Shown here piece by piece: positions 17,503 through 34,157 of a stretch of DNA of 64,000 nucleotides. Source of the DNA: Nocardioides pelophilus (lineage in GTDB: Bacteria; Actinomycetota; Actinomycetes; Propionibacteriales; Nocardioidaceae); assembly GCF_014180685.1 (NCBI RefSeq), contig NZ_JACEHF010000002.1, forward strand, positions 1 to 64,000. The letters run 5' to 3'. The notes under the pieces are model-generated. The model had not been told where the DNA came from. It saw only the letters and a program-made list of their open reading frames with translations, and ran no database searches. The position numbers were made by a program, and so were the translations under genes. Positions within the stretch are counted from its first letter, which is position 1, and each line of letters starts with the position of its first letter.

Positions 17503-19215
17503 TCAGGTACCGAACGCACTGAACAGACCGTCGCCTGAGCCGACGCCGTCGCCGACGATGGACACCCTGTCGAGATAGATGTTGCGGTGTTCGCAGCTGG
17601 TCTCCGGAAGCAACAAGCACGCGTGGCATGCGGCCAGGTTGAGCCCGTCGCTCCCAGACGGCCCGGATTCACAGCACACCGGATCGTTCGAACACCAGCT
17701 CGCCCGGCTCATCGACGCGATTACGGCGTCTGCTAGCCGCTTTTCCGCTGCCAGCGCCGCCAGCCCTCCCAGACTGCCTGCGGCATCGGACGAGGCGGTG
17801 TAGATGAGAAGACCGGATTGGCCCGGCTCGGCGTAGATCCGTTCCCGGAGCGACCCGATGGGATAGCCGGCATCCAAACTCAGCTCTTGGAGTAGCGCGT
17901 GAGCGAGAGAGTGGATTGCGATGAAGCGTGCCGACGGCGCCTCGACGACGGGGGCCCCCGACTCGGTCGTGCGCTGCCGTAGCGACTGGCTCAGCATGGC
18001 ATGGCGACGTTCGGCCAGTCTCTCTCCCTCCCACCCAGAGACAGCTTCCTCGTCCAGCCTGACGAAGATCCCTTCTCCGAGCACCTCGGTCGCTGGGAGC
18101 CAATAGAGCGGCGTAGCGCTCAACGGCGCGAGACGAGGACTCGTCGAGTCGGTCGGCATAGGCGTCACTCTGGAGAACCCGTGCAGCGAACGCACTTCGC
18201 GGAGTCTCGTCGCCTTCGAAACCTGGCGAACGATGCCCCGCAGGCGTACGTCGACATCGACCGGCACACACTGGAATGTATCCATGGCGCCACCGTCGTT
18301 CCCGTCGATCAGTGCGCGGTACTCCTCCTCACGAAGGTCCTTGTCCGTCGGCGGCTGGCCGGACTCGAGTCCCTTCCGTCCACGGACGACCTCGATGATT
18401 CCGTCGATAGAGAGGCCGCTTCGCCCCGCAAGCATCCCGGGCAGTGCGGCGCGCAACGCGTCTTCCGGGAGATGCTCGAGCACTGTCCAGTGCTTGGTCA
18501 CAAACTGAGCGTTCGGGCTGGACCACGGTGGGATTGAGATGGAGGAGCGGACAGCGCCGAACCAGACGTTGGACGAACCGCGCTGGAGGGCTCGAAGCGG
18601 CTTGTCGCAGATCTCGTCCGGAGAGCCTGGGAGCCAGGGGCGCTTGCCTCCGCAGCGCTTGATCTCGGTGAGGGCGTTTCGGTTGAAGGACCCGTCGAGG
18701 TCGTGCGCGGGTACACCGCACGAGCAGCGAACGACGATGTCTGCCAGCGATGACGAGGCTCCGCGGGACTCAAGGCGCATCGTGTGGTCGCTCCCGCTCG
18801 TGTCGGCGCCGCGGTGGACCCACTGGAAGTAAGGGAAGTCCTCGATGTGGCCGTTCTCGCAGCAGGCCACGAAGCGCGAGGGAGTCAGATCCCGAGTGCA
18901 ATCGGGACATTCCATCTTCCTGGCGTCGAAGGCCCAGAAGCGATCGAGACGCCTGCACTCCGGGCAGTAGTGGAAGAGCGGGAAGCGCACGACAGGGACA
19001 TCGCCAGACCGTTTGCCGCTGGAAGGCGCCTTGAAAGTGTGGACGCCGAGAGAGCGAGCGAGGCGAGGCTCCTCGACCGACGGAGACCATTTGCCGTCCC
19101 ACTCGTCAGTGCCGCACACCATGAAACTCTGGTCGCCGGCCGGGTACAGCGATCCGACGCCATACGTCGTGACGAGCTGACTCTGTCGGGCCTTCGGGCG
19201 ATCAGTGGTCGCCAT
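17503..19215 (-). CDS. drmB: DrmB, DUF1998-domain protein of DISARM
   Basis: 570 residues, ATG 19215, overlapping the end of drmA by 14 bases. The N-terminus RQSQLVTTYGVGSLYPAGDQ is typical of DrmB. A first zinc-binding cluster is FHYCPECRRLDRFW with MECPDC and ACCENGH. The C-terminal DUF1998 part has ARFIAIHSLAHALLQELSLD, LLIYTASSDAAGSLGGLAAL and the Cys series CSNDPVCCES, LNLAACHACLLLPETSCEHRN. In DISARM, DrmB partners DrmA in the DNA-binding and translocating core complex against incoming phage DNA. Size and motif order are normal. It is the last gene of the operon. Confidence 0.9.
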   Translation of the reverse strand: MATTDRPKARQSQLVTTYGVGSLYPAGDQSFMVCGTDEWDGKWSPSVEEPRLARSLGVHTFKAPSSGKRSGDVPVVRFPLFHYCPECRRLDRFWAFDARKMECPDCTRDLTPSRFVACCENGHIEDFPYFQWVHRGADTSGSDHTMRLESRGASSSLADIVVRCSCGVPAHDLDGSFNRNALTEIKRCGGKRPWLPGSPDEICDKPLRALQRGSSNVWFGAVRSSISIPPWSSPNAQFVTKHWTVLEHLPEDALRAALPGMLAGRSGLSIDGIIEVVRGRKGLESGQPPTDKDLREEEYRALIDGNDGGAMDTFQCVPVDVDVRLRGIVRQVSKATRLREVRSLHGFSRVTPMPTDSTSPRLAPLSATPLYWLPATEVLGEGIFVRLDEEAVSGWEGERLAERRHAMLSQSLRQRTTESGAPVVEAPSARFIAIHSLAHALLQELSLDAGYPIGSLRERIYAEPGQSGLLIYTASSDAAGSLGGLAALAAEKRLADAVIASMSRASWCSNDPVCCESGPSGSDGLNLAACHACLLLPETSCEHRNIYLDRVSIVGDGVGSGDGLFSAFGT

Positions 19216-22200
19216 CGCGCACCGCCTTGGTGTGTCGGGTCGATATGATCTTGAGCGTGCTCTCGCGGTCCACGTTCCGGAGCGACATCAACGTCGGCCA
19301 CGGAGGCTCGGCCGGCGGGAAGATCTCGGCTAGCGGTTCGCCCGTCGACGAGTCCATCCCCGAACTGCCCGCAGGAATGATCAGTCCTTTCACCTCCGGA
19401 CCTTGTTGCGCCCACCGCGGGTACTGAAGTACGTCGGAGTTCTCGATCGCCGCCTCCCAGTGCTCGATGAGGCTGTCGAGGGCCTCTCTAACACCGTCGG
19501 CCGAATCGGGATCCACCCGACGGGCACGAGCGACGACGACCCCCGCCAGGTCGCCCAGTGCGTCGCTATCGACCGGCACGGATACCGCCTTGTCTCCCGC
19601 GGCCCCCGACACCAAATGCCTGGCGAGGATGACGAGGAGGCCGTGCAGCCCGCGATCGAGCGCGCGGGGCGCGAACGGCGTCGCGCCTGTGGCCTCGACC
19701 TGGCGGTAGAGCGCCCGGTGGTACGAGGTGAAGGACTCGTAATGAGACAGATCGCGAGAGCGCGACGCGTTGTAAAGGGTGAACACCAACCCTGGGCGGC
19801 TGCGCCCGACACGACTGGTCGCTTGAATGTATTCCGACGTCGTCTGCGGCTGACCCATCACCGCCATGAGTCCGAGTCGATCAACGTCGACGCCAACCGA
19901 GATCATGTTGGTTGCGAGAACGATGTCCGGCGAGTTGGGGTCTGGGTACGCAGTCTGAAGCGCGTCGAGTTCCTGCGGTATCTCGCTTGACTTCTTCCGA
20001 GACGTCAGCTCTCGTGGGTCCCGGGTTTCACGCTGCTCGTTGCCGCTTCGACGGGCTACGACCTTGACCCTGTCCCGAACGTCGTCGATGGACTGAATAT
20101 AGGCGGCGCCCAGCACCCTCAGGCTGTTGAAATAGCCCAGGATCGTCCAGTATGCATCGCGGACTTCGTCGGAGGCATCGAGGTCCTTGGCGGCCTGGAG
20201 CGCGGCAGCGTAGGTGCGGATCAGCAACGTCGCGTGACTCGCGCTCGGTGCCATGAGTCCGACGTACTGCCTCGTGCCCTTGACATCAGGTGCGGCATCG
20301 ACCGCGAAGAAGGAATCCTCGGCGTCCACCCCGGGAGGCGGGAACTGGCGTGCATCGCGGTCGAAGACCGCCCGCACTTGGTCCGCGGCGCGCCGGATGG
20401 TCGCGGTGGAGGCAACCAGCTTCGGTCGCGTGCGTGCTTGAGAATCCGTGGCGAGTTCGTCGATCGCCGTCTCGTAAAGCCCGACAAGCGTCCCGAGCGG
20501 GCCGCTGATCAGGTGCAGCTCGTCCTGAACGATCAAGTCTGGTGGGGCGTCGTGTCGGGAGCCGAACAGGGCACCGCTCCGCTCCCGCCACGCGAGCATC
20601 GCGAACTTGTCGACCGTCCCGATGACCAAGGAAGGCCGCACGTCGTAGACCTGTGAATCGACGAGGTGGACAGGCAATCCGTCACCCGACGCAAACCTGC
20701 AGGTCGCGTTCGGGCAATGGACGGTCACCCTGTCGCGACGCGTGTCCGCCTCGTAGTGCTCGGGTCCGAGCCTGGAACCGCACCACGGGCATCGCAGCAG
20801 CTGAATGGGATCCCCGAGATCGCCGGGATCCTCACCTCCCTGGCGCTTCCTGATCGCTTTGGCCGCGTCTTCCGTCTTGTTGGGTGTCGCCCCTTGTCCA
20901 ACCCAAAGCCCGATGGAGAAGGGCTCCCAGCCATCCTGTCCGCCCTCTCCGGTGCGCCAGTCCTCAAGTGCGCAGATCAGACCGGCGGCCCGCTCGAATT
21001 GCTGGAGCGTTAGGAGTCGGAGCGTGTATCGCATCAGGACGCCGACTCCGGCGCCGTTGCCGTCCGCTCCGGCTCCACGGAGGCGACGGTGCACCAATGT
21101 GAAGGCAATCAAGCCGAGGTACGCCTCTGTCTTGCCACCGCCGGTAGGGAACCACAGCAAGTCGGCGAGATCGCGGTCCTCGGAGTTCGGGTCCGCGATT
21201 CCCTCGAGGTTCTGGAGGATGAAGGCAATCTGGAACGGCCGCCACGCGCCGACGACATCGTTCGGCGGAGCGGTCAGACCTCGCCGCACCATTTCCTGAC
21301 GGGTCCTTTGCTGCTGCATGACGAGATTCATGACGCGAAATGCCTCGGCGGCGTCGGGGTCGCGGGCGAGTAGGTCGATACCGCGTCGCATGCGCCCGGC
21401 TGCCACCCGGGCGTCGGACAAGTGACCGCGAGCGGTAGCTGCGTGCGGTGGCGTCAGCGCCGGAAGCTTCTCGGCCTCGCGGTCGATCCACGACTCGTAC
21501 TGCGAAACGAGCCGTTCAAGTGCGGAGCGAGAATCCCTTGCCGCGAGGTTCGGCATTTCCAGCCCATGGACATCGTCCCGATCGGCCTGAGCAAGCTGCA
21601 GATCGTAAGCGGGGAAGAACGTCGTGCCCACCTCGGCGACGTCGTCGTCCTCGTCCCAGGTGACAGCAACGCCATGCCCGACCGCGAGGTGGCGCTGCTT
21701 TCTGTACAGCAACTCGCCGCTGCGCTCGTCGGTGTCCATGTGATCGAGCAGGCGATCAGGCCGTCGGTCGGCGAGGGTTCCGTCCACAACCCGCACCCGG
21801 AGAGCCGGACGGAACCAGCACAGTCCATCGGACCGACCCTTCTCCGGCTTGGTGTGTGTGTTGACCAACACGACAGTGACGTTCACGACGCCGTCGATCG
21901 CTGGGCGCTGCACCGAGCGCAATTCGAGGCCGTCGACGATGGTTCTGGTGACAGATCCTGGGGCGACCTCGAAAGCCTCGAGCACTGGTCCGACTCCAAC
22001 GCGCCGCCAATCGGTGACTCGCTTGCCGTAGGCGCGAGTTGCGACGCCCGTCTCGGGCGAGCCCTCCGCTGCCTTTTCCAGTGGCTCGTACCTATCAGCG
22101 ACGACTTCCACCTCGAACGCGGTGGCGTCGGCGGTCATGCCGAAGGTCAACCCCATGGTCGAGGGGTAACGCAGGTGAGCGAAGGAAACTCCCGGGTCGA

Positions 22201-22423
22201 AGTCAGCGTCGGGGGCCGTGCCGCCTTCGCTGTCTGGATCCTCGTCGGCAACCTCGACGGGAGCGCTTGCCCCCTCGGCGGTGCGGGGGTGAAGGATTCC
22301 TACGATGAACCGTTCCAGAGGCTCCTCGTCGATGAGCTCGTCCTCGTTCGTGCCGAAGAGATCCGCGACCACCGCGTCGACCATGCGCTTGCGAGCTTCG
22401 TACCACGGGTCGAGCGTGCTCAT
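19202..22423 (-). CDS. drmA: DrmA, SF2-type helicase of DISARM
   Basis: 1,073 residues from ATG 22423, which overlaps the upstream stop as ATGA. The N-terminal about 400 residues begin MSTLDPWYEARKRMVDAVVA. Walker A is FPTGGGKTEAYLG (residues 425-437), motif II is LIVQDELHLISGPLG (DELH at 634-637) and motif III is STAT near 672. A Cys cluster (CPWC at 545-548, C570 and C575) sits between them. Motif VI is QATSRVGRSRPGLVF. The QDELHLISG string is characteristic of DrmA. The gene forms the DISARM core with drmB and lies downstream of a UvrD-like gene rather than drmD or drmE. Confidence 0.9.
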   Translation of the reverse strand: MSTLDPWYEARKRMVDAVVADLFGTNEDELIDEEPLERFIVGILHPRTAEGASAPVEVADEDPDSEGGTAPDADFDPGVSFAHLRYPSTMGLTFGMTADATAFEVEVVADRYEPLEKAAEGSPETGVATRAYGKRVTDWRRVGVGPVLEAFEVAPGSVTRTIVDGLELRSVQRPAIDGVVNVTVVLVNTHTKPEKGRSDGLCWFRPALRVRVVDGTLADRRPDRLLDHMDTDERSGELLYRKQRHLAVGHGVAVTWDEDDDVAEVGTTFFPAYDLQLAQADRDDVHGLEMPNLAARDSRSALERLVSQYESWIDREAEKLPALTPPHAATARGHLSDARVAAGRMRRGIDLLARDPDAAEAFRVMNLVMQQQRTRQEMVRRGLTAPPNDVVGAWRPFQIAFILQNLEGIADPNSEDRDLADLLWFPTGGGKTEAYLGLIAFTLVHRRLRGAGADGNGAGVGVLMRYTLRLLTLQQFERAAGLICALEDWRTGEGGQDGWEPFSIGLWVGQGATPNKTEDAAKAIRKRQGGEDPGDLGDPIQLLRCPWCGSRLGPEHYEADTRRDRVTVHCPNATCRFASGDGLPVHLVDSQVYDVRPSLVIGTVDKFAMLAWRERSGALFGSRHDAPPDLIVQDELHLISGPLGTLVGLYETAIDELATDSQARTRPKLVASTATIRRAADQVRAVFDRDARQFPPPGVDAEDSFFAVDAAPDVKGTRQYVGLMAPSASHATLLIRTYAAALQAAKDLDASDEVRDAYWTILGYFNSLRVLGAAYIQSIDDVRDRVKVVARRSGNEQRETRDPRELTSRKKSSEIPQELDALQTAYPDPNSPDIVLATNMISVGVDVDRLGLMAVMGQPQTTSEYIQATSRVGRSRPGLVFTLYNASRSRDLSHYESFTSYHRALYRQVEATGATPFAPRALDRGLHGLLVILARHLVSGAAGDKAVSVPVDSDALGDLAGVVVARARRVDPDSADGVREALDSLIEHWEAAIENSDVLQYPRWAQQGPEVKGLIIPAGSSGMDSSTGEPLAEIFPPAEPPWPTLMSLRNVDRESTLKIISTRHTKAVRDGDH

Positions 22424-24207
22424 TCGGCGGCTCCGTTCCAGTCGAGAGTGAGAAGTCCTGTGATGATCGGTGCGAGATAGAGGCCATGTCGCCACGGCGA
22501 GTCCGGCCGCGGGTCTGACGCTGCCGTGGCGATGGCTTCGACCTGTGCGCCACGTAGGTCCGGCCACGTGCCCCGTCGACGTTCGAGCGTCCCGATGCGG
22601 CTGGCCAGATCCTCGCCGAACATTCGCGATGTGCGGGCGATCGTCGTCCCGTTGTGCACGACCGCGTACACCGGGAGATCCAACGTCGACGGCTCTACGT
22701 CGAGACGCAGTGCCAGTTCAGAACCCGGCGCGACTTCGGAAACGATGTGGGCCTGGCTTGGTGCGGGATTGTCGAAAATCGGCTCGGTATCACCGATACC
22801 GATCTCGAATCCGAACGTCATCCAAGGCTTGTGGCCGCCCACGTACCACCGAGTTCGCCGTGCCGTAGGGCTGGTGGCCAGGCGAAGGTCTCGATCATCC
22901 GGGCCGTCCGCCCGAACGAGATAGCTCCGCGCTCGAGTCAGGGCGACGAACTGCGTGCGACGGACCTCGTCGATCTCGGTATCAGCCGCGGCCCTACCCC
23001 GTACTGGGAAGTCGAGAAGTACGACATTGTCGAACTCGAGACCCTTGGCCCGGTGAACGGTCGACACGACCACGTCCGCCACGGGGCTCTGCGCCAGGTC
23101 GGGAAGCAGGCGGCGGCCTGCTCGCACACGGTTCGCGATCGAGCTGACAGTGATTTCCGTGCCGCGAGCACCAACAAGACTTCTGAGTGCGCGCCAGGCG
23201 GCGGCTGCATCGACGTCTGGGCGCCTGTCCGAGATGAGTTTTTCGAAGTCTGCCTTGCTGACACTGTCAGTCGTGGAGTCGCCCAACGTCGCCGCTACCC
23301 AGCTGGCTGCGACCTGCTGGTGCGCGCTTCGACGGATCTCTACACCCACGCCCAGCCGTCGGAGTGCGCCGGCGGTTGCCAGTGCCTGGCCATTCGTCGC
23401 TGTGAGCAGAGCAGTCGAGCCCCGCCAGCTGCCAAGGAGATCGACGGCGTCCTCGATCTGGCCGAGGTGTATGAGGTCGGCGAAGAAGCCTTCGAGCGCC
23501 GACGCATCGCCGTGGGGGAGCGCCGCGTCGCGCAACCGCATAGCCGCTTGAGAATCGCGGCTTGACGCGCGGTACTGCCCTGTCAGTTCGCGGAGCGTTG
23601 GAGCGTGAGCTTCGGACACGGACTCCAAGAGCTGCGTAGACGTAGTGGTGGACGAGGCCCCGCGGCCACGACGTGTCTCTCGAAGCTGGAAGTCGTAGAT
23701 CCCCTGAGCCGGATCACCCAGCAGGCTGAACCCGGCGTCGGCCGGCATGGCGGAAAGGATCGACCTGAGGAAGTCTGCTCTGACCCCGACGACGTCCTGG
23801 ACCTCGTCGACGATGAGATGCTGAAGGTCGCCGATCCGGTCCCATCCGTCGTCGGCCAACAGACGCGTGGCTTCTTCTACTCGGTCGTCGAAGTCGAGGT
23901 CCTTGTAATCCTCGGTAGCGAGCTCTCTCAGAATCTCGGCGGCGAGCGAGTCCATCGTCTGGACCGAAACAGGTGCTGCGCCGTGGGCCCTTAGCCGGCC
24001 CTCCGCGGCGTTGACCGCCGCGTTCGAGAAGCTGATGACGAGGAGTCCGTCGACGGCATCGACGCCCGCCTCCTCTGTCAGATGTTCGATCAGCGCCGAC
24101 ACGACTTCGGTCTTGCCCGAGCCAGGGCCTGCAATCACGATCTGCCGCTCCTCCGGTTCGATCTGGACCGCCTCGAGTTGGCTCGGGTCCAGCGCGACAT
24201 CCGTCAT
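22420..24207 (-). CDS. UvrD-like SF1 helicase/ATPase
   Basis: 595 residues from ATG 24207, four-base overlaps with both neighbours. Walker A is IAGPGSGKTEVV (residues 25-36), motif II is LIVDEVQDVVG (134-138 DEVQD), with GDPAQGIYDFQ as motif III, VSTVHRAKGLEFDNVVLLD as motif V and FVALTRARSYLVR as motif VI. It is a compact UvrD-type enzyme with about 150 residues after motif VI that I cannot assign (TRWYVGGHKPWMTFGFEIGI onward). No nuclease motif is visible. It is not part of the canonical DISARM sets, but its tight coupling to drmA suggests a joint function. Confidence 0.85.
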   Translation of the reverse strand: MTDVALDPSQLEAVQIEPEERQIVIAGPGSGKTEVVSALIEHLTEEAGVDAVDGLLVISFSNAAVNAAEGRLRAHGAAPVSVQTMDSLAAEILRELATEDYKDLDFDDRVEEATRLLADDGWDRIGDLQHLIVDEVQDVVGVRADFLRSILSAMPADAGFSLLGDPAQGIYDFQLRETRRGRGASSTTTSTQLLESVSEAHAPTLRELTGQYRASSRDSQAAMRLRDAALPHGDASALEGFFADLIHLGQIEDAVDLLGSWRGSTALLTATNGQALATAGALRRLGVGVEIRRSAHQQVAASWVAATLGDSTTDSVSKADFEKLISDRRPDVDAAAAWRALRSLVGARGTEITVSSIANRVRAGRRLLPDLAQSPVADVVVSTVHRAKGLEFDNVVLLDFPVRGRAAADTEIDEVRRTQFVALTRARSYLVRADGPDDRDLRLATSPTARRTRWYVGGHKPWMTFGFEIGIGDTEPIFDNPAPSQAHIVSEVAPGSELALRLDVEPSTLDLPVYAVVHNGTTIARTSRMFGEDLASRIGTLERRRGTWPDLRGAQVEAIATAASDPRPDSPWRHGLYLAPIITGLLTLDWNGAAE

Positions 24208-27200
24208 CGTTTGGTCCAGAGATACTCGAACTCCCTGAAGGCGAGCAGATCGCCGTACTGCTGGAAGTTGTCCTGAACGTTGACGATCAGCACCTCCTCC
24301 GAACCGCCGTTCTTCGGACCGCGAAGTCCACGACCGATCATCTGTTGGTAGACGTTCGGGCTGAAGGTCGGCCGCGCCACGTATACGGCTTGGACCTTCG
24401 GTGCGTCGAAACCTTGCGTGAGTACGTTGAAGTTCGTGAGCACCCTGATTCGGCCTGCCTTGAACTCCTCCACGTAGTGTCGCCGGGCCGCGGTCTCTGT
24501 ATCCGCGGAGACTGAGACCGCTGGGATGCCCTGATGCGAGAGCAACGCTGCGAGAACTCGGGCGTTCTCCACAGACGGTGCAAACGCCAGGATCGTCCAG
24601 TCGTCAGGGAGTGCGGCGATGGAATCGACGACCTTCAACGTTCGAGTCAGGTTCGCGCCCAGGCGCTCGGCAACGGCCGGCGGCAGCCGCTTCATCTTCT
24701 CGATCTCGGCGATGTCAGACGCGGTCAGCTCGGCATCGCTTCCATCGAGGATCCGGTGTTTGACCTGTGCGAGCACTCGCATGTCTTGGAGTTCCTCGTA
24801 TGGGTCTTCCTTGGTGAACGCACCACGATCCAGCCGATTTCCGAGATATCTGCCCGCCAACCGCTCGGTCTCATCGACCGAGGTGCCGCGGAAGGGCGTT
24901 GCCGTAAGACCGATGAGAGGCTTTCGAACCTCGCCCTTGCGCGGGCGCGCGCCGCGGCCGAGCCAGTCCAACACGCGTGTGTAGGACGAAGCGATCGACG
25001 TGTGAGCCTCGTCGATGACGACGACCGACGGCTGGCGCAGCCAGTCGTACTCGCCATTGGATCGCGTCACCAGAGAGTTGAGCTTGTCCACTGTTGCGAT
25101 CACGAGCTGGAACGTCCCGGGTTCCTCAGGGACTTCGTTGTTCGCCCAGAGGCGGCCGAGACGCATCGGGACCTGCGGCCCGATCGCCCGCCACACGTAC
25201 GTCCAGGTCTCGGCAGCCTGCTCGCAGAGCTCGTCCGTCTGGGCGATCCAGATCTGGGGGACGCTCGCAGGCACGTCGCCTTCGCGAACTGCATTCACAA
25301 GCGCCTGCACCGTCACCCGGGTCTTACCTGCCCCGGTGGGCAGAGAGACCATCCCGCGCTCGTTGCCGACGCCTCGAAGCATGCTCTTGATGCGATCGGT
25401 GACGAAGTCCTGATAATCGTGCAGTGGGCTGAGGATCGCGGGGCCGTCGATGACCTCCACCGCCGCGCGGCTGCTGCCAGGAAATCCCGCCCAGTCGGCA
25501 GGAAACCCGTGGTCGTGAACCCACTGACGGGTCCGGTGCCGTCCAGTCCACTCGCGGGGCGGTTCGAGGCCGCGTTCTTCGAGTGCGGGACGGAGCTGCT
25601 TGAGGATCGCGACCCCGTGCACCGAGCGCGCGAGGGAGGCGACGTCCGTAGGACTCGCTCCGCCCGTAGCCCCATCTAGAACTTCGAGCGCCTGAGCCGG
25701 CACGCACCTGCGGAGCGCGTCGACGCCGACCGCGACTACAAGCCTCTCGTCATCCGACTTGGCTTTCTTGATCTCAGTCCGCAGCTTGTTGGTGGCGGTC
25801 CGCTCCATCTGCTGCAGGACCTTGGCGATGGCTGCCGCATCCATGCCGAGGCCGAGCACACGTGAAACTTGAGCGATCTGCTCGGTGGGCTTGGTGGCGG
25901 TCACAAGGATCACGTCACCGTCGCGGCGCGCTTGGATCGGCGACGCTACCTGGCCCCGAGGCGTCGCGATCATCTTGACGAGCCTGGACGCCGGTTGGAG
26001 GCGCAGGTCTTGGTCGGCCGGATCCAGGCGCAGCTTCAACGGCGGATACATGTCGGTCAAGAAGACGGCTTCGCCCGATGTTTCGGCCACGATCTCCTCT
26101 TGAAGGAGGTCCTTGCCGCGCGGCATACCCCACGTCTCGACAAACCGTTCAGCGTCGTCGGCGTCCGCGACGAACAAGACGGGGATCTGCGCTTCCACCA
26201 TCGATTCGTGCACAGCAACTTCGGATGTGACACCGATGTTCTTCGTCTCCACGGACTGCAATTGGCGACCGACTCGGACGACCAGGGAGTCACACTCGAT
26301 GCGACCGGGGAGCCAGGCGTAGAACGTGGTTCGACGCTCGTCGTCTTCCGGACCTCGCCAGGTGTCTGCGATGGCTTTCAGGTCGCGCCAGTCCGCGGCG
26401 CTAAGCGTCTCCGGGTCCCTTTCGATTCCCAGCGCATTGGCCCACGCATCAGACACGTCGACTGCGGGCAAGATCGACGGGTCGATGCCCTCGCCGGCCA
26501 GCAGCGTGGAGGTAGGGCGTCGGACCCCGTATTCGGTGCGTAGCAGTCCGTGCTTGCGCAGGAACCACACCTCAGGAGGAATGACTGAGAACGTTCCATA
26601 GCTCGCGTTCGACGTGTGCTGTACCCGCCACCATGCGCTCACAGGCCGGGACATCAGATGCTCTGTCGCGGCCGCGATGCCTTCTGCGCTCAGTGTCCGA
26701 AGCGGGGCGAGTGGCCACGGGGGAGGAGATCCTTTCGTCCCGGCGGAGACTTGAATCTTCGCTGGGTCCGGCCGGCTTCCGCCTTTGGGCTGCTTGGCAA
26801 TGAAGGCATTGCGCATGTCGTCCTCGTACACCGCGAACCACGCCTCGGTCGGCGCATGCATCCGCCACACGGGAGCGTCGACAGCGTCCAACTCGTGCAG
26901 GAGGTCTTCATCCCGGGCATGGAAGCGCGGGTCGATCAGACGGTCGCGATCCCGACTTCCGTCTGCCGGGATGATCCTGCCTGGCAGGAACACCTGCGGT
27001 ATCGGCAGCCAGGTGCCGGCAGCCGTCCGGACTCGAACGTGACTCAGGAGGTCCTGCCCGAGGTCCTCACGCAGAATCTGGAGCGCAGTATCGCGCGGAA
27101 TGTCGCGAAGCACGGCCCAGATAGCCGACCAGACGTTGTCAGGCGACTTAAGGGCCGCGGGTGTCTTCGCCTCGGCGAGCAAGCGGCGGAGCTCTCCGCT

Positions 27201-28976
27201 TCGGTCCATGACGACGATGCCGAGCTGACTCAACGCTTCCCGCACAGCAGGCAGCGCAGCGAGTGCCGGGTCCACGAAGTCGACGTCGGATGACGTGTCA
27301 CCCGGGACGCGCACGAAGACCCGGCCCTTTGCCGGAGCACGGAATTCGCCGTTCTCAAGACGGATGATCTTCGCACTACGCACGTCGGCAGCGGCGTTGC
27401 GCACTCTCACCTCGGTCGACGCCGCGGCGTCCATCGCGACCCTGGCTGCAAGAAGGATCGCCTCCGCAGACGCCTCCACGGTCCCTGCGGAGACGAGCGC
27501 CTCCAGCCACTCGTCGATGCCCGAGTGAGTCGGAGCGTCCGATGAACCGCGCTCGTGCTGCATCAACCGCACGATCTTGTTGCGACGCTCGGGACTCGAG
27601 TAGGCACTGGGGTGCAGCCAGTGTTCGAGAGGTGCGTCCTTGATCCGCGCCCAATGCTCGAGCCATTCCGTCGGCGCGTCGCCGATCCACTTCACGTCCG
27701 CGGGCCGGCGGAGCGTGTTGGTGCCATCAGGCAGCGAGGGCACCCGCCGAAGCTCCCTGAAGATCGGGTCGTTGATCTCACGATCGACCCAGTTCCGGGA
27801 TTCGAGCCCTCGCGCCGGCATCGCGTCCAAGGCCGAGACCGCGTCGTTGGTTCCGCTGAGGATCTGCAGCGCTTGGCCGACGAGCCCGGGAAGCCTCTCG
27901 AGCAACTCTATGTTGAATCCGCCCTCGAGGAGGCCCGTCCGATCGTCACTCAACTTCCACGGAGCGTTGATGAGCCCGGTCAGCGTGGTCTCGAAGTTGG
28001 TGGGGAAGTACGCCCAGAAGCGGCCCAGGCGATTGGAGCCGGGTGGGATCGGCAGGGCGTACTGAACTTCCACCTGTTGGCGGGACGCCACGTGCCCGCC
28101 CTCGCGTCGAGCCGAGCTGCTCGGTACGTGCAGCGCGCGCTTCACGACCCAGCGGGCCGAAACCCCGCCGGACTTGAGGATCACCGAGCCATCCGTTACC
28201 GCTTCTTGACTGATCGATCGATCAGCCGGGCGACCCGATGCCCCTCGCTTTGCAGCGGGGTCCGACTCTGCGAGGTTTCTGAGTCGTGCGCGCTTGATGT
28301 GCGCCGAGAAGAGGATGAACTCCGCAGGGAAGTCGTAGAGGCGGCGCGAGATCGTCTCGTACGAGACCGCCAGGGGTACGACAACCACGGTGCTCGCCCA
28401 CTCCATGAGTTCGCGAAGGTTGTCGTCTCGCGCCGAGCCCTCGGAGATCGGGTCGAGTGAACGAGCCAGGCGCATCGTCGGGTACTGCTCGAACTCGTAT
28501 CCCTCGTCTTTCAGCGTCTCTGTGGCCCAGGCCTTGTCGAAGCCGAACGACACGGTGCGGCTGAACACGCGCGGGCTGGTCGAAACAGCCAGGACCGACT
28601 TGAAACCGATGCCGAACTTGCCGATCTTGTCGTCGTCCTTGGACGAGATGTCGGATGCCATCACCGACCGCAAGCCGCGCTCGTCGAACGGTTCACCGTC
28701 GTTGGCGACGTACAGGGTGTCCTTGGTCAGAAGGACCTCGACGCGCTCGCCGCCCTTGCGCGCCGCGTCGACCGCATTCTGGAGAAGCTCTTCAAGCTGC
28801 CGGGTTGCGTACCCGCCCTCGGAGATCCGTCGCTCGTTGTTCGCGTCCTGCAGCACACGGCTCGGGTCCTCGGCGTAGACCTTTAGACAGACGTCGGTCT
28901 GCTCCCATACGACCTTGGCAAGGCCGTCCGCCCCGCGTTCCCAACCCTGCACTGCAACCCCATCGTGAGACGACAT
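24204..28976 (-). CDS. GHKL (sacsin/Hsp90-like) ATPase fused to SF2 helicase
   Basis: 1,590 residues, ATG 28976, stop overlapping the UvrD-like start. The N-terminus holds a Bergerat fold: QLEELLQNAVDAA (N-box, residues 60-72), NDGEPFDERG (G1, D93) and KIGKFGIGFKSVLAVS (G2, 117-132). Residues about 300-1150 match nothing I know. The C-terminal helicase has SLPTGAGKTRV (Walker A 1213-1219), VVVIDEAHTS (DEAH 1322-1325), LIGLTATPFRG (III) and YQQMIGRGLRGPKNGG (VI about 1545). A nucleotide-clamped chaperone-like head joined to a translocase suggests a DNA- or complex-loading motor. The role is inference from the operon. Confidence 0.85.
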   Translation of the reverse strand: MSSHDGVAVQGWERGADGLAKVVWEQTDVCLKVYAEDPSRVLQDANNERRISEGGYATRQLEELLQNAVDAARKGGERVEVLLTKDTLYVANDGEPFDERGLRSVMASDISSKDDDKIGKFGIGFKSVLAVSTSPRVFSRTVSFGFDKAWATETLKDEGYEFEQYPTMRLARSLDPISEGSARDDNLRELMEWASTVVVVPLAVSYETISRRLYDFPAEFILFSAHIKRARLRNLAESDPAAKRGASGRPADRSISQEAVTDGSVILKSGGVSARWVVKRALHVPSSSARREGGHVASRQQVEVQYALPIPPGSNRLGRFWAYFPTNFETTLTGLINAPWKLSDDRTGLLEGGFNIELLERLPGLVGQALQILSGTNDAVSALDAMPARGLESRNWVDREINDPIFRELRRVPSLPDGTNTLRRPADVKWIGDAPTEWLEHWARIKDAPLEHWLHPSAYSSPERRNKIVRLMQHERGSSDAPTHSGIDEWLEALVSAGTVEASAEAILLAARVAMDAAASTEVRVRNAAADVRSAKIIRLENGEFRAPAKGRVFVRVPGDTSSDVDFVDPALAALPAVREALSQLGIVVMDRSGELRRLLAEAKTPAALKSPDNVWSAIWAVLRDIPRDTALQILREDLGQDLLSHVRVRTAAGTWLPIPQVFLPGRIIPADGSRDRDRLIDPRFHARDEDLLHELDAVDAPVWRMHAPTEAWFAVYEDDMRNAFIAKQPKGGSRPDPAKIQVSAGTKGSPPPWPLAPLRTLSAEGIAAATEHLMSRPVSAWWRVQHTSNASYGTFSVIPPEVWFLRKHGLLRTEYGVRRPTSTLLAGEGIDPSILPAVDVSDAWANALGIERDPETLSAADWRDLKAIADTWRGPEDDERRTTFYAWLPGRIECDSLVVRVGRQLQSVETKNIGVTSEVAVHESMVEAQIPVLFVADADDAERFVETWGMPRGKDLLQEEIVAETSGEAVFLTDMYPPLKLRLDPADQDLRLQPASRLVKMIATPRGQVASPIQARRDGDVILVTATKPTEQIAQVSRVLGLGMDAAAIAKVLQQMERTATNKLRTEIKKAKSDDERLVVAVGVDALRRCVPAQALEVLDGATGGASPTDVASLARSVHGVAILKQLRPALEERGLEPPREWTGRHRTRQWVHDHGFPADWAGFPGSSRAAVEVIDGPAILSPLHDYQDFVTDRIKSMLRGVGNERGMVSLPTGAGKTRVTVQALVNAVREGDVPASVPQIWIAQTDELCEQAAETWTYVWRAIGPQVPMRLGRLWANNEVPEEPGTFQLVIATVDKLNSLVTRSNGEYDWLRQPSVVVIDEAHTSIASSYTRVLDWLGRGARPRKGEVRKPLIGLTATPFRGTSVDETERLAGRYLGNRLDRGAFTKEDPYEELQDMRVLAQVKHRILDGSDAELTASDIAEIEKMKRLPPAVAERLGANLTRTLKVVDSIAALPDDWTILAFAPSVENARVLAALLSHQGIPAVSVSADTETAARRHYVEEFKAGRIRVLTNFNVLTQGFDAPKVQAVYVARPTFSPNVYQQMIGRGLRGPKNGGSEEVLIVNVQDNFQQYGDLLAFREFEYLWTKR

Positions 28977-29087
28977 CCGCGAAGGCCGAACCTCCCGTCG
29001 ACCAACGCAGCGAATCTATGGCAACCCGCCGACAGAAATCAGGGTTTGGCAAAGGAACCGGTACTCACCGGTGCTCAATCAGAGCAC

Positions 29088-30140
29088 CTACACGGTCATG
29101 AAACCTGCGAGGTGCGCGGCGATAGCCTGAGCAAGCGGCACGGGTACCGCGTTGCCGATCTGTCGCGCGATCGCAGCCTTGGTCCCGCACCAAGCGAACG
29201 ACTCGGGGAAGCCCTGGATGAGTGCCGCTTCGGCGTGAGTCAACGGCCGGTGCTCGCTGGGGTGCAGGAATCGCCCCTTCTCCGGCTTGAAGAACTCTGT
29301 CCGGATCGTCACGGCCGGCTTGTCCCACGAGAGGCGGCCCATGACATCCCCCGCGCCGCGGGTGTGCTTGCGCCAGCCGGGAGTCTGGAGTTCGTCGGGC
29401 AGGTGGAAGCGGCTTCCCCCTGGCGGGATCGCGCGATACCGCGCTATTGACAGCGGCGGAACGATGCGTGTGAAGTGCAGCTCGGGAAGTTTGAACGGCC
29501 CCGGTACCACCTTGCCGCGGAACTCCGTGCTCCGGCTCGGAAGGTCGTTGAGTTCGACCCGCGCATCGAGCCATGCGGGGAACGCATCGCCTAGGACCTT
29601 GCGGGCAGATTCGGGCGGGGGACCGATCGGCGAGAGCTCCCTGCGTCGGCCGACAACGACAGCTCGCTTCCGCGCCTGAGGAGCGCCGTAGTCGGCTGCA
29701 TTCAGCACGAAGGTCTCAAGTCGGTACGAGGCCAGCACTCCTCCAGCCGAGGTCTCCGCGTGGAGACTCGCGAACTCGGTGGTCCCAAGAAACTGTGGGA
29801 CGTTCTCGATGACGAAGAACGCCGGTCGTACGCGACTAAGCACCTCGACGTAATGCCGCCACAGCTTGTTGCGAGGATCGTCCGGATCACGCCGGCCCAG
29901 CGCCGAGAACCCCTGGCACGGCGGACCACCGACAACGACGTCCGCGGCCGGCATTGAGCCGTCGGCCCAGTCCGCGATGTCTCCGACGAACACGTGATCG
30001 CCGAAGTTGTGTGCGTATGTCGCGGCGGCTTGGAAGTCTGATTCCACGGCGGCGACAGGGGTGTACCTGCCGGACGCTTCGAACCCTGCGCTGAGGCCAC
30101 CACAACCTGCGAACAGGTCGATGACGCGCAGCTTCCTCAT
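29088..30140 (-). CDS. Cytosine-C5 DNA methyltransferase (candidate DISARM methylase)
   Basis: 350 residues from ATG 30140 (MRKLRVIDLFAGCGGLSAGF); a GTG at 30212 would add 24 residues without known domain. Motif I is DLFAGCGG, motif IV is GGPPCQGFSALGRRDP with the catalytic Cys, motif VI is FFVIENVP, motif VIII is APQARKRAVVVG, and motif X is RQIGNAVPVPLAQAIA. All motifs are intact. The target-recognition region (LPELHFTRIVPPLSIARYRA) is related to that of the second methyltransferase at 31855. It precedes the four-gene drm operon, so it may protect host DNA as DrmMII does in class 2 DISARM. Its sequence target is unknown. Confidence 0.9.
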   Translation of the reverse strand: MRKLRVIDLFAGCGGLSAGFEASGRYTPVAAVESDFQAAATYAHNFGDHVFVGDIADWADGSMPAADVVVGGPPCQGFSALGRRDPDDPRNKLWRHYVEVLSRVRPAFFVIENVPQFLGTTEFASLHAETSAGGVLASYRLETFVLNAADYGAPQARKRAVVVGRRRELSPIGPPPESARKVLGDAFPAWLDARVELNDLPSRSTEFRGKVVPGPFKLPELHFTRIVPPLSIARYRAIPPGGSRFHLPDELQTPGWRKHTRGAGDVMGRLSWDKPAVTIRTEFFKPEKGRFLHPSEHRPLTHAEAALIQGFPESFAWCGTKAAIARQIGNAVPVPLAQAIAAHLAGFMTV

Positions 30141-30334
30141 GGCCCGGAGATTAGCTTCGCGAGAGGACGTCGCGTCCGCGGCGCGCGGCTTCGCAGTCTC
30201 GACCTTCGTCACGCGGCGAACGCTGTGCGCGCCACAGGTCTGCGTTCGGCGTCCTTATCCACAGAAGGACACCTAGCGGTAGAGGTGGCGAGTAGTCGGA
30301 CCTATGTCTGGGCCAGTCCCCTTGGAGGTATCCG

Positions 30335-30463
30335 ATGATCGTCTTTCTGGCCGTACCCGTGATCTTCATCGTCGCCCTCTGCCACCGAGCGCTCCACCGC
30401 CGCGCTCCGTCGAACAAGCCGTACGTCGTGCATGGAGGTCGGAGCTGTCCTGGCGAGTCGTGA
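30335..30463 (+). CDS. Small hydrophobic peptide, 42 residues, coupled to the next ORF
   Basis: Open frame MIVFLAVPVIFIVALCHRAL followed by a basic tail (HRRAPSNKPYVVHGGRSCPGES). A good ribosome site, GGAGG at 30324-30328, lies six bases before the ATG. The single N-terminal membrane helix plus basic tail resembles many small membrane peptides, including toxins, but no family is recognised. Its stop overlaps the next ATG as TGATG, which indicates translational coupling. It is antisense to the surrounding defence genes. Confidence 0.5.
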   Translation: MIVFLAVPVIFIVALCHRALHRRAPSNKPYVVHGGRSCPGES

Positions 30464-30756
30464 TGGCTCAGACGCTGCTCGCCCTTGGGCTTGCGTTCGC
30501 CGTCCACCTCGCGCTGATCGCGATTGACTCTGGCGCGAGTAGGTCCCTGTTCCTTGTCGTGATGTTGCTCGCGTGGGACAGCATCAAGTTCGCCGTGTCG
30601 GCCAGCTTCTTGCTCCTGCGCTTGCTAGCGAACCTTCTTTTGCGCGGCGGCAGCTCGCTCATGTCCAGAAGACGTCGAGCCGTTGGGGCAGCTTCGGCGC
30701 GGGAACGACCGGCTCGTCCGCGTGAGCTCGCGCCCATCGCTGTTCCGCAACGCTGA
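30463..30756 (+). CDS. Small membrane protein, coupled to the upstream peptide
   Basis: 97 residues from ATG 30463 (MAQTLLALGLAFAVHLALIA). Two hydrophobic segments, residues about 3-20 and 28-57 (SLFLVVMLLAWDSIKFAVSA and following), are followed by an Arg/Ala/Pro-rich cytoplasmic tail. The last 98 bases overlap the 3' end of the NaeI-like gene in convergent orientation. No family is recognised. The ribosome site and hydrophobic patterning favour a real gene over a shadow, although homologues are needed to be sure. Confidence 0.45.
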   Translation: MAQTLLALGLAFAVHLALIAIDSGASRSLFLVVMLLAWDSIKFAVSASFLLLRLLANLLLRGGSSLMSRRRRAVGAASARERPARPRELAPIAVPQR

Positions 30757-31813
30757 AGAACGGCCGGCTGTCGGTTGCCTCCACCGGAACGACGCGGGTG
30801 GCGATCCACTCGCCCTTGACCGGGACTGGAAGTTGCAGGGCCTTGGCAATGTGGGGATGCGACTCCTGGTGCCCGAGGACCAGAAGCCCCTCATCGCAAA
30901 GATTCAGTCGGGCGTCACGAGCACGCTTGGGAGCGTCGTCCTGTTGGGCGACCGTGAGCACCATCTGGCGACTGACGATCGAGTCGCGGACCTCCCGGAA
31001 CAGCTGATCGACCCGAGCCTGACCCGACCGGGGGAACGAGAAGATGCGATCCCGTGCCGCTGGGTCCATGTGGAGCAGCAGGTTTCGTGGAAGGTCGATC
31101 TGCAGCCCGCCCCAGAGCCAGTAGACGTCGCGCGCCGAGGCGTCCGCGAGCCGTCTCTTGTTGTCGCGGTTGTATGCCCTGCCCACATCGCCGGTGTTCT
31201 TGTCTGTCCGCCACCGCAGACGCTCGTCGGTGATCTTGACGAGTCCGGCTGCCCAGGTGCTGGTGTCGTCGTTGATCCAGGTGAGCAGAGCGGGGTGGTC
31301 GGCCTTGCCCTGCCTGCCCTCATGGTCCGCGCAGCGGTACATCTCCATCGGGATCTCCCAACCACCGAGATCCTTCGAGAACTTGCAGTCGACGTCGCGG
31401 TCCGCGACGCGCCAGTCGAGATCATGTCCGTTGGCGAACTCGAACTCCTTGGTCAGGTTGACCTCAACGGCGGTGCCCAGGTAGGTCTTCTCGGTCTTCG
31501 AGAGATGTTGATAGGCCCAGCGCCCAGTGCGCTGTCCATCCAGCAGCTCGTCGAGCGAGTCGCGCAGCGCCCAGCGGAATCTCTCGCGTGCGTCAGGCTC
31601 GTTCTCGAACCACGCGACGATGTCTGCCAGCTCCTGCGGCACGGTCTGCTCGAGCCCGCTGCGTATCGACCACGCGGCGGGGGTCTTCCCCATCGGCTCG
31701 GCTGGGGCTGGATGCGTACGAAAGGTGTTTCGTCGGCGCCTGATCGCGCGGGCGCGCGAGTCCTGTGTCGGCGTCCTCAACTGGTCGTCGAGCGGCAGGG
31801 CTTCCTGATTCAC
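30659..31813 (-). CDS. NaeI-family type IIE restriction endonuclease
   Basis: 384 residues from a GTG at 31813; the Met at residue 41 would give a length nearer to NaeI (317). The catalytic segment DLDWRVADRDVDCKFSKDLG carries D133, D142 and K144, with the same spacing as D86, D95 and K97 of NaeI. LDELLDGQRTGRW (residues 87-99) matches the NaeI ligase-like motif, with Leu90 where ligases have Lys. The C-terminal half (GQARVNQLF-like, TVAQQDDAPKRARDARL, LGHQESHPHIAKALQLPVPV) is the NaeI Topo/CAP-like DNA-binding domain. NaeI cuts GCCGGC after binding two sites. The same recognition here is inferred. Confidence 0.88.
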   Translation of the reverse strand: MNQEALPLDDQLRTPTQDSRARAIRRRRNTFRTHPAPAEPMGKTPAAWSIRSGLEQTVPQELADIVAWFENEPDARERFRWALRDSLDELLDGQRTGRWAYQHLSKTEKTYLGTAVEVNLTKEFEFANGHDLDWRVADRDVDCKFSKDLGGWEIPMEMYRCADHEGRQGKADHPALLTWINDDTSTWAAGLVKITDERLRWRTDKNTGDVGRAYNRDNKRRLADASARDVYWLWGGLQIDLPRNLLLHMDPAARDRIFSFPRSGQARVDQLFREVRDSIVSRQMVLTVAQQDDAPKRARDARLNLCDEGLLVLGHQESHPHIAKALQLPVPVKGEWIATRVVPVEATDSRPFFSVAEQRWARAHADEPVVPAPKLPQRLDVFWT

Positions 31814-31854
31814 CGCGCCAGTCTGTCAGCCCGTGGCGGGCTGGGACTCAACTG

Positions 31855-32994
31855 TCAGGCGATGAACGGGCGGACCTGCTTGGCGATCGCGCGTGCCAGT
31901 CCAGAAGGAACGGCGTTGCCGATCTGCTTCGCGATGGCGGTCTTCGTCCCGACCCAAAGGTAGTCCTTTGGGAAGTCCTGGATGAGGGACGCCTCGTAGT
32001 GGGTGATGACTCGATCGACGGACTTCCCGGGGTCGCCCTTGATGTACTTCGGATCGTCGCCACGGCGCTGTCGGCCGGGCACCCACTGAGGGTGGAGGTA
32101 GGCACCCTTCTCGGGCTTGAAGAACTCGGTTCGGATCGTCAGCGACGGTGCGTCCCACCGCATGCGGCCCATGACGTCCGTCGTACCTGTGGGCTTCTCC
32201 CGCCAGCAGCGGGGGAGTAGCTCGACTGGCACGTCGAACCTGCCGCCTCCTGGCGGCACGTACGAATACCGGTCGAGCGACATCTGATTGGGATTGCGGC
32301 GGAAGTGGATGTCGAGTCCCTTGAAGACGCCCGGCATGGGTTCGCCGAAGAACTCGGTAACAGACTCCGGCAGCTCCGTCGTATCCGGACGAGCAGGCAG
32401 GCCCTCGATGGCATCACGAACGGTTCGCCACGGCAGCAGCCCCGAGCCTGGTTCTGGCGCCCGGGCGTGTGTCGGGTTCGGAAGCTCGATCTTGCCGACC
32501 CGTGAACCGATGACGATGGTTCGCCGGCGCCGCTGCGACACGCCGTAGTCGGCCGCGTTCAGGACGCCATACGAGATCTCGTAGTTCTTGAGAACGCCGT
32601 GATCCACCTCGTCCAAGAGCATCTGGAACTCTGGCGACTTTGAGAAACGGTCAACATTCTCAATGACGAAGACCTGGGGCTTCGCGGTCCGAATGAACCG
32701 CATGTACTCCCGCCACAACTGGTTCCTCGGGTCGTCGAGCTTCTTCAAGCCCAGATTCGAGAAGCCTTGGCACGGCGGGCCGCCGATCATGAGGTCGGCC
32801 AGGGGGATCTGACGCTTCTCGACTGCGGCGATGTCGCCGGCGATTACGTGGTCCTCGCCCCAGTTGGCCGCGTACGTAGCGGCGGCGTGCAGGTCCCACT
32901 CCACCGCGAGCACCGGCTCGAAGCCCTCGTCGTGGAACCCGACCGTCATGCCTCCGCAGCCTGCAAAGAGGTCGATCACGGTCGGATTGGTCAT
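31855..32994 (-). CDS. Cytosine-C5 DNA methyltransferase, probable partner of NaeI-like enzyme
   Basis: 379 residues from ATG 32994 (MTNPTVIDLFAGCGGMTVGF). It has motif I, GGPPCQGFSNLGLKKLDDPR (motif IV), FVIENVDRF (VI), VSQRRRRTIVIGSR (VIII) and KQIGNAVPSGLARAIA (X). It ends 41 bases before the NaeI-like gene, in the same direction, and is divergent from vsr. It and the methyltransferase at 29088 share segments such as IRTEFFKPEKG, so they are paralogues with different variable regions. This one carries an extra insertion (QRRGDDPKYIKGDPGKSVDR). By position it is the cognate protector of the NaeI-like nuclease. Confidence 0.9.
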   Translation of the reverse strand: MTNPTVIDLFAGCGGMTVGFHDEGFEPVLAVEWDLHAAATYAANWGEDHVIAGDIAAVEKRQIPLADLMIGGPPCQGFSNLGLKKLDDPRNQLWREYMRFIRTAKPQVFVIENVDRFSKSPEFQMLLDEVDHGVLKNYEISYGVLNAADYGVSQRRRRTIVIGSRVGKIELPNPTHARAPEPGSGLLPWRTVRDAIEGLPARPDTTELPESVTEFFGEPMPGVFKGLDIHFRRNPNQMSLDRYSYVPPGGGRFDVPVELLPRCWREKPTGTTDVMGRMRWDAPSLTIRTEFFKPEKGAYLHPQWVPGRQRRGDDPKYIKGDPGKSVDRVITHYEASLIQDFPKDYLWVGTKTAIAKQIGNAVPSGLARAIAKQVRPFIA

Positions 32995-33227
32995 GGCACG
33001 TAGCGTATGTTCCGGCGCCGACAGTTTCGGAAGCAACGCCGTGGCGTGACCGGAGTGACGCATGTGACGCGAACCTGCTACGGGATCTGGGTCGGGGCTC
33101 TTCATGTGCCCAACTGTCGGGCCACGCGTTGAGAGTCGTCGCGTGGCGGCGCCATCCTGTGGAGAACGGCGTCTGAATCGGCGCCATGAGGAGCAACCGG
33201 CGTGGTTGGAGGACGGAGGTCGACGCG

Positions 33228-33680
33228 ATGCCCGAGTCCTCGTCCTGGGCTACCTCGGAAGCCACACGCCGATCGATGCAGGGCAACCGCGGGCGGGACA
33301 CCGGCCCCGAGATCGCCGTCAGGCGGATCGTGCACGCGCGCGGTCTTCGGTACCGGGTCGACGCGCGCCCTCTCGCAGCGCTGAACCGTCGGGCGGATCT
33401 GGTCTTCTCGCGAGCCAAGGTCGCGGTGTTCATCGACGGGTGCTTCTGGCACGGCTGTCCCGACCACCACACGGTCGCGAAGGCGAACGCGACGTACTGG
33501 GCGGAGAAGGTCGCGGGCAACCGCTTGCGCGACGTGGACACGTCACAGCGACTGAAGGACGCGGGATGGCTTGTTCTCCGCTTCTGGGAGCACGAGCCGC
33601 CGGGCGAGGTTGCCGAGGCGATCATCCACGCGGTGCAGGACCGACGCGGGGCCGTTGTGCACCACGATCGCCCAGACTGA
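33228..33680 (+). CDS. vsr: Very short patch repair endonuclease (Vsr)
   Basis: 150 residues from ATG 33228, with GGAGG eight bases upstream; an earlier in-frame ATG at 33186 lacks such a site. Family motifs are GNRGRDTGPEIAVRRIVHAR, RADLVFSRAKVAVFIDGCFWHGCPDH (catalytic Asp, then the Trp-His-Cys zinc/active-site region), YWAEKVAGNRLRD and VLRFWEHE. Vsr nicks 5' of T in T:G mismatches that arise when 5-methylcytosine deaminates, so it accompanies C5 methylation systems. It is divergent from the second methyltransferase. Confidence 0.9.
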   Translation: MPESSSWATSEATRRSMQGNRGRDTGPEIAVRRIVHARGLRYRVDARPLAALNRRADLVFSRAKVAVFIDGCFWHGCPDHHTVAKANATYWAEKVAGNRLRDVDTSQRLKDAGWLVLRFWEHEPPGEVAEAIIHAVQDRRGAVVHHDRPD

Positions 33681-33681
33681 T

Positions 33682-34064: not shown

Positions 34065-34157
34065 CCCGCAATTGTCGCCGCCCGTGCCTTGTGTCTGCCA
34101 CGAGGCCCTCGGGCTCGGTAGCTTGTACGCCTCACTCGAATCTGGCGAGAGGAACCT

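Follow-up and report, generated by a model that had tools for sequence, protein, structure and literature searches.

DISARM defence systems reportedly fall into two classes, one built from drmD, drmMI, drmA, drmB and drmC and the other from drmE, drmMII, drmA, drmB and drmC, and standard DISARM annotation rules expect drmC plus drmD or drmE. In the Serratia system, DrmA and DrmB are reported to form the core complex (DrmAB), which requires single-stranded or forked DNA; its ATPase is raised by unmethylated DNA and lowered by 5-methylcytosine, and V1296 of DrmA has been proposed as the methylation sensor (PMC9142583). DrmC, a phospholipase D-like (PLD) nuclease described as common to both subtypes (PMC10270631), is reportedly dispensable, and other PLD nucleases can reportedly take its place (PMC9142583). 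By one account, the role of DrmAB in DISARM has been solved structurally and the events that follow its firing have not (PMC10270631). Among other described systems, ARMADA type II is reported in a preprint to combine helicases, including a GajB-like UvrD protein, with a methylase and to confer direct protection (PMC12458937), and GHKL proteins have been tied to superfamily 2 (SF2) helicases, C5-methylases and Vsr in restriction-modification (R-M) systems (Iyer 2008, PMC2292703). Here we describe a cassette of Nocardioides pelophilus in which drmA and drmB keep different company. It occupies positions 17503-30212, on the - strand, of a 64,000-nucleotide stretch (the first 64,000 positions of contig NZ_JACEHF010000002.1, hereafter the window), and consists of five intact open reading frames (ORFs) in the order C5-methyltransferase, GHKL-SF2 fusion, UvrD-like superfamily 1 (SF1) helicase, drmA and drmB. 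We consider it probable that the cassette is a DISARM-like defence system that has the fusion, the UvrD-like helicase, DrmA and DrmB as its inherited core and works with a nearby C5-methyltransferase.

The initial annotation had recognised these five genes on one strand, and all of them are intact at the places it gave. Its upper boundary, 30140, is an internal ATG (residue 25) of the methyltransferase, whose ORF reaches 30212. With the start of drmA (19202..22423) placed at ATG 22423, the genes from the fusion (24204..28976) through uvrD (22420..24207) and drmA to drmB (17503..19215) overlap by 4, 4 and 14 bases, the range first proposed; the drmA ORF as listed opens at GTG 22567, which gives a 148-base overlap with uvrD, and the ATG at residue 49 shortens this to 4 bases. 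The methyltransferase (29088..30140, ORF to 30212) lies upstream of the fusion, separated from it by a 111-base gap, and is therefore not translationally coupled to it.

The names drmA and drmB, assigned at first from motifs, are borne out, as both proteins score above the NCBIfam cut-offs: the short-form DrmA with NF038325 'DISARM_DrmAS' (996 bits, cut-off 950), and DrmB, the OB/DUF1998 (MZB) partner of DrmA, with NF038324 (453 bits, cut-off 240). The corresponding PADLOC models give 805 and 220 bits, Pfam MZB matches DrmB as well, and a PDB sequence search at E <= 0.001 matches the two proteins to Serratia DrmA and DrmB alone (7s9v/7s9w; E 3e-177 to 7s9v_A and 3e-73 to 7s9v_B). In alignment A2 to 7s9v, Val1099 (numbered from GTG 22567; codon 19271..19273, - strand) pairs with Serratia V1296, and this position is valine in 120 of 121 DrmA rows, the remaining row being gapped. 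The cassette shares with DISARM, then, a YprA-type SF2 DrmA, a DrmB (DUF1998) encoded as its own adjacent gene and the sensor valine, whose retention supports, rather than proves, a gating by methylation.

The fusion is 1590 amino acids long. It has a sacsin-type N terminus (NF047352, 78.6 bits, cut-off 50), and an SF2 helicase resembling RadD and ResIII forms the C terminus (residues ~1185-1570, 24267..25424; Pfam ResIII/DEAD/Helicase_C; RadD 6jde, E 1e-36 with profile A1). Residues 35-475 (27552..28874), modelled with a predicted local distance difference test score (pLDDT) of 88.6, adopt the fold of a GHKL ATPase with its transducer domain. VIA-align Z scores of this region reach 12-13 against GyrB, TRAP1, sacsin and SMCHD1 and 11.7 against MutL; its Foldseek matches also include MORC3, MORC4 and MORC2, and the Hsp90 fold is likewise matched. 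E63/N67/D70, G119/G122/G124 and the SF2 motifs are invariant in the 16-row alignment A1, and both ATPase sites are intact. Because the fusion holds two such modules, the cassette contains four ATPase modules and not the three motors counted initially. Among PADLOC models, those for TmtA match fusion residues 20-463 (161 bits, model span 10-428 of 1538) and those for mREase_IV match the SF2 part at 45 bits. The SF1 protein carries the Pfam domains UvrD-helicase and UvrD_C, and its structure model (pLDDT 89) finds its best Foldseek matches in UvrD/Rep/PcrA; PADLOC models of the Gabija helicase GajB match it at up to 85 bits, more weakly than UvrD/Rep/PcrA. No nuclease domain was recognised in the UvrD-like protein, and a hidden nuclease was rejected as its model hit helicases only among the Foldseek matches listed.

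This gene order recurs well beyond Nocardioides pelophilus. Named genomes scanned with alignment A1 yielded at least 155 relatives of the fusion, where the fusion as a single-sequence query had yielded none; the best 79 loci were kept, a set that favours close kin of the window and to which all counts of fusion loci below refer. At 65 of the 79, DrmA and then DrmB lie downstream of the fusion on the same strand. These ordered loci belong to 63 Actinomycetota, one Acidobacteriota and one Chloroflexota, 33 of them coming from Streptomyces and its allies. The gene between the fusion and DrmA encodes a UvrD protein at 51 of them (44 found by profile, seven via tblastn) and a helicase with a NERD domain at 13; at the last, L189, no gene intervenes. 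A sister lineage carries a NERD nuclease domain in the SF1 slot; the D..ExK motif is found in 13/13 of its SF1 proteins, and a nuclease can therefore be built into this slot.

A second survey started from DrmA, at a threshold of E <= 1e-20, and covered 296 genomes of the host's class and 198 of its family, of which 46 and 21, respectively, held a match. Neighbourhoods were inspected at all 17 non-window loci above 700 bits and at 20 lower-scoring loci (three on short contigs), ~45 genomes having lower-scoring matches only. Above 700 bits, the fusion and an SF1 gene lie upstream in order at 15/17 loci, the exceptions being G361 and G118, and DrmC is matched at 0/17; a C5-methyltransferase accompanies 11 of the 15 and Vsr 10. 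At the lower-scoring loci, the fusion is found in 0/20. The full cassette occurs in 12/296 class genomes and 5/198 family genomes, the host's own included. The recurrent order GHKL-SF2, UvrD, drmA, drmB that had been put forward from the window is conserved in other genomes in both surveys (65/79 and 15/17 loci, counting any SF1 gene in the UvrD slot and, at L189, an empty slot), and chance is therefore excluded.

The genes that would place the cassette in class 1 or class 2 were sought at several levels. PADLOC, Pfam and NCBIfam scans of the five cassette proteins and four neighbours (nine proteins, 17503-35528) gave no match to DrmC/PLD, DrmD or DrmE, in agreement with the first impression that drmC, drmD and drmE were missing. 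The same three collections returned no DrmC, DrmD or DrmE hidden in the fusion, nor did a fold comparison spanning its residues ~35-484. DrmC is matched at 0/65 ordered loci, compared with 4/20 of the lower-scoring DrmA loci that served as controls in the same searches. In the host's own genome, the DrmC model finds one weak 31-bit match, in a 438-amino-acid frame on another contig, and the 11 matches of PLDc_2 all lie outside the window's contig; one PADLOC DrmE model has no match there and 0/296 in the class genomes. DrmD-profile matches at three loci (L159, L161 and L211) are BrxHII-type neighbours and not members of the cassette. Because drmC was not found, and neither was drmD or drmE, the cassette should be assigned neither to class 1 nor to class 2 of DISARM. 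A core free of a nuclease would be compatible with the reports that DrmC is non-essential.

The DrmA phylogeny agrees with a separate standing. A quick search over 121 proteins, with Shimodaira-Hasegawa-like approximate likelihood ratio test (SH-aLRT) values as its only support and class 2 DISARM DrmA not among the rows, joins 67 of 68 GHKL_UvrD rows in a single clade (SH-aLRT 100), together with two rows that have UvrD only and one whose neighbours are ARMADA-like genes. The 68th, L189, lies outside this clade; it was tagged GHKL_UvrD by default and has no UvrD between its fusion and DrmA. Ten class 1 DISARM rows and one further row form another clade (SH-aLRT 99), and the GHKL rows with a NERD helicase take a third position, near DrmAB rows with other partners. 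Plasmid DrmA matches inspected as class 2 candidates proved to be class 1, partial or other. Pairwise distances among the fusion, UvrD, DrmA and DrmB correlate at r 0.94-0.98 (0.96 for fusion and DrmA), with 0/999 permutations as high, whereas distances of the C5-methyltransferase correlate with those of the core at r 0.39-0.51, weakly yet significantly (0/999 permutations as high); the best-scoring methyltransferase of each locus was taken, so mixed choices may depress this last value. The difference points to four core proteins inherited together and a methyltransferase that can be exchanged.

The methyltransferase itself (PF00145, 202 bits), the presumed self-marking partner, is best matched in PADLOC by DruM2 (PDLC00033, 321 bits), with DrmMII at 158 bits. 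Within the fetched stretches, a C5-methyltransferase is present at 56/65 ordered loci and Vsr at 44/65, against a background in class genomes, at the limits used, of 74/148 for any C5-methyltransferase and 54/148 for any Vsr. The Nocardioides pelophilus genome has one Vsr and two C5-methyltransferases, every one of them in the island that surrounds the cassette, and the two methyltransferases are 47% identical. The C5-methyltransferase is loosely associated with the cassette and exchangeable, and is not a coupled part of it.

Restriction enzymes, integrases and conjugation genes make up the setting. Upstream of the cassette on the - strand lie a NaeI-like type II restriction endonuclease (30659..31813; PF09126, 274 bits), likely a separate R-M system, and the second C5-methyltransferase (31855..33105; PF00145, 208 bits). 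On the + strand follow Vsr, the mismatch endonuclease that recurs as a neighbour (33186..33680; TIGR00632, 116 bits, cut-off 97.85), and an AspBHI/Mrr-type methyl-directed restriction enzyme (34158..35528; PF18062 and PF04471; PADLOC mREase_II, 679 bits). Two tyrosine integrases, 67% identical (14685-15734 and 36187-37572), flank the island, and the two copies of a 27-base direct repeat (93%), at 14693-14719 and 35877-35903, are possible element ends. Genes for SSB, a TraD/TraG-type coupling protein and an ArdC-like antirestriction protein at 39909-44208 suggest an adjoining conjugative or integrative element, and a UvrD_C_2-like fragment at 16337-16759 (Pfam, below cut-off) is perhaps the remnant of a relaxase-helicase C-terminus.

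Loci inspected elsewhere show further arrangements around DrmAB or the fusion. In a Tsukamurella plasmid, the place of the fusion, between the methyltransferase and UvrD-DrmA-DrmB, is taken by a protein with a RelA/SpoT domain (L003:10870-12264; Pfam E 1.6e-15), and DrmB is followed by ARMADA-like genes for BrxHII and PglX (L003:19063-26594), as it is in G104, G361 and G290. A divergent trio of ~720, 330 and 300 amino acids, absent from the window, is found upstream of the fusion at many loci from Streptomyces and its relatives (as at L166:5610-9510); its members were found in 34, 27 and 23 of 81 stretches compared, and the first and third of those at L166 match the PADLOC candidates PDC-M33A and PDC-M33C. 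A third DrmC-less type, seen in Photobacterium (L006:10035-17801) and similarly in several actinobacteria, consists of DrmA, DrmB, an AAA/SF1-like ATPase and an unmatched protein. An Arthrobacter plasmid operon (L011:7182-17386) encodes a C5-methyltransferase, a sacsin-like protein, an ATP-binding protein, a PD-(D/E)XK protein and a Z1 protein; the sacsin-like protein, 31% identical to the first half of the fusion, is a GHKL half without SF2 motor and without DrmAB. The idea that proteobacteria carry the fusion split into two genes was rejected: the neighbours of 975-988 and 1046 amino acids are SF2/SNF2-like, an N6/N4 methylase or unmatched, with no GHKL among them.

The cassette most likely works like DISARM. 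In such a scheme, the C5-methyltransferase would mark host DNA. By homology with Serratia DISARM, DrmAB would load onto single-stranded or forked invader DNA, where unmethylated bases would trigger its ATPase, the valine acting as sensor (PMC9142583). Judging by its fold, the GHKL part may shut as an ATP-driven dimeric clamp, like MutL, MORC and gyrase; the RadD/ResIII-like motor of the fusion may then translocate, and the UvrD-like helicase may strip or unwind DNA. With no recognised nuclease in the core, the invader DNA would be blocked and unwound, or else passed to host or neighbouring nucleases. Beyond this, we put forward more tentatively, as a serious possibility on which we would not insist, that the cassette represents a distinct, recurrent and nuclease-free DISARM-like class, found mainly in Actinomycetota, in which DrmAB reads missing cytosine methylation, the GHKL-SF2 fusion and UvrD dismantle or block the invader, and the self-mark can come from any nearby C5-methyltransferase. 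If so, DrmAB and its valine would have been kept while all other DISARM proteins were swapped, which would show which steps are general and which replaceable and would tell whether defence can run without a dedicated nuclease. The cassette would in addition link DISARM with R-M systems through their MORC/MutL-type ATPases, and it offers annotators a class that would be overlooked, or reported as incomplete, under standard DISARM rules.

Several observations weigh against a DISARM-like defence system with a single inherited core. At 14/79 fusion loci, DrmAB does not follow downstream in order: three of these sequences stop less than 1 kb from the fusion and two less than 5 kb from it, one (Kocuria, L216) has UvrD-DrmA-DrmB inverted, and eight are without DrmAB. 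There are also UvrD-DrmAB sets with no fusion, on plasmids of Tsukamurella, Azospirillum and Rhizobium and at G118, so the parts of the cassette can work apart. A C5-methyltransferase is absent from 9/65 ordered loci, a codirectional one ending <=600 nucleotides upstream of the fusion is found at just 8/66 loci, window included, and the distances of the methyltransferase follow those of the core weakly, though significantly. The middle of the fusion, residues ~490-1150, is without an assigned fold. Lastly, the defence role is a prediction, and both the mechanism and the anti-phage activity of the cassette are ones that we infer.

The first two of these observations give the best-surviving rival its footing, namely that two independent systems, a paraMORC/Tiamat-like GHKL-SF2 system and DrmAB, stand side by side and are joined by defence-gene clustering alone. 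The eight informative loci where the fusion lacks DrmAB and the UvrD-DrmAB sets without fusion are what it would lead one to expect, and GHKL proteins accompanied by SF2 helicases, C5-methylases and Vsr are reported in R-M settings (PMC2292703). We nevertheless regard it as unlikely, given a fixed order with overlapping genes across all three phyla and the tight co-divergence of fusion and DrmA. A little less probable again is a modification-dependent (type IV-like) system that hits methylated or modified DNA, the neighbouring methyltransferases belonging to separate R-M systems. The mREase_IV match of the SF2 part, the AspBHI/Mrr-type enzyme nearby and the weak correlation between methyltransferase and core would all suit such a system, which must however contend with the report that 5-methylcytosine inhibits and does not activate Serratia DrmAB (PMC9142583), with the conserved sensor valine, and with C5-methyltransferases at most loci, which would make it self-harming.

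That the cassette serves DNA repair or genome maintenance in connection with 5-methylcytosine, and not defence, seems improbable. Its patchy presence in the class genomes, its mobile-element and restriction neighbours, the adjoining PDC-M33 candidate defence genes in Streptomyces and the placement of DrmA/DrmB, by similarity, in the defence branch of the YprA tree outweigh, in our judgement, the frequency of Vsr, the GHKL fold match to MutL, the fact that UvrD and RadD are repair helicases and the description of the YprA-family MrfA as a repair helicase (PMC12458937). An ordinary DISARM system with drmC, drmD or drmE lost or moved elsewhere in the genome is the least credible, for although DrmC is reported to be replaceable by other PLD nucleases (PMC9142583) and PLD proteins are encoded on other contigs, DrmC is missing at every ordered locus and present among the controls, two extra genes consistently replace drmD/drmE, and DrmA has its own clade in a tree whose sample excludes class 2 DrmA.

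A DISARM-like system with an inherited four-protein core remains our preferred reading, and its relation to described systems can be set out part by part. With DISARM class 1, the cassette shares DrmA and DrmB as two adjacent genes, the sensor valine, a nearby methyltransferase and a defence setting; unlike class 1, it has no drmC, drmD or MmeI-like/PglX-like adenine methylase but the GHKL-SF2 fusion and UvrD in place of the missing genes, and its DrmA is short and in a separate clade. The short DrmA model (DrmAS) and a cytosine methyltransferase recall class 2, from which the cassette differs in lacking drmE and drmC and in a methyltransferase nearer to DruM2 than to DrmMII, class 2 DrmA being outside the tree sample. 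The MORC/paraMORC R-M systems offer a GHKL ATPase, an SF2 helicase, a C5-methylase and Vsr, with no UvrD, DUF1998/DrmB or YprA partner in the parts of their description consulted (PMC2292703), whereas the cassette unites GHKL and SF2 in one chain within a DrmAB operon. Tiamat (TmtA) bears a partial, weak likeness to the N-terminal part of the fusion, which adds an SF2 motor, and Gabija contributes only the weak resemblance of GajB to the UvrD protein, its OLD/TOPRIM nuclease GajA having no match among the nine scanned proteins. A DrmAB cassette with a NERD helicase on the Rhodococcus opacus plasmid pROB02 (L153:6012-15207) also does without DrmC and adjoins Vsr, a NaeI-family enzyme and a C5-methyltransferase, but has no GHKL-SF2 fusion, has two unmatched upstream genes and belongs to another DrmA clade; similar sets occur in G452, G031, G100, G304 and G025.

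The gene order is not described in the open-access full texts searched or in the PADLOC model sets, subscription papers and further preprints being outside that scope, and no subtype already named for it was found there. The cassette is apparently undescribed, while the existence of DISARM-like classes is known generically: a 2025 preprint places 'many uncharacterized DISARM-like' classes in its DISARM-like clade (PMC12458937). The proposal in the initial annotation of a distinct DISARM architecture or a related system is supported to this extent, except that the plan of several helicases with a methylase is not unique, as ARMADA type II is reported to have three helicases and a methylase. The parts of ARMADA that have no counterpart in the cassette, as far as the preprint's description was consulted, are a BrxHII-like helicase, a PglX-like methylase and a one-chain YprA/DUF1998/Vsr-type nuclease; the window's nine scanned proteins gave no match to BrxHII or PglX, and DrmA and DrmB are split, unlike the one-chain YprA. 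In joining a YprA-type helicase to other helicases, among them a GajB-like UvrD, and to a methyltransferase, ARMADA type II is nonetheless the system closest to the cassette in its logic.

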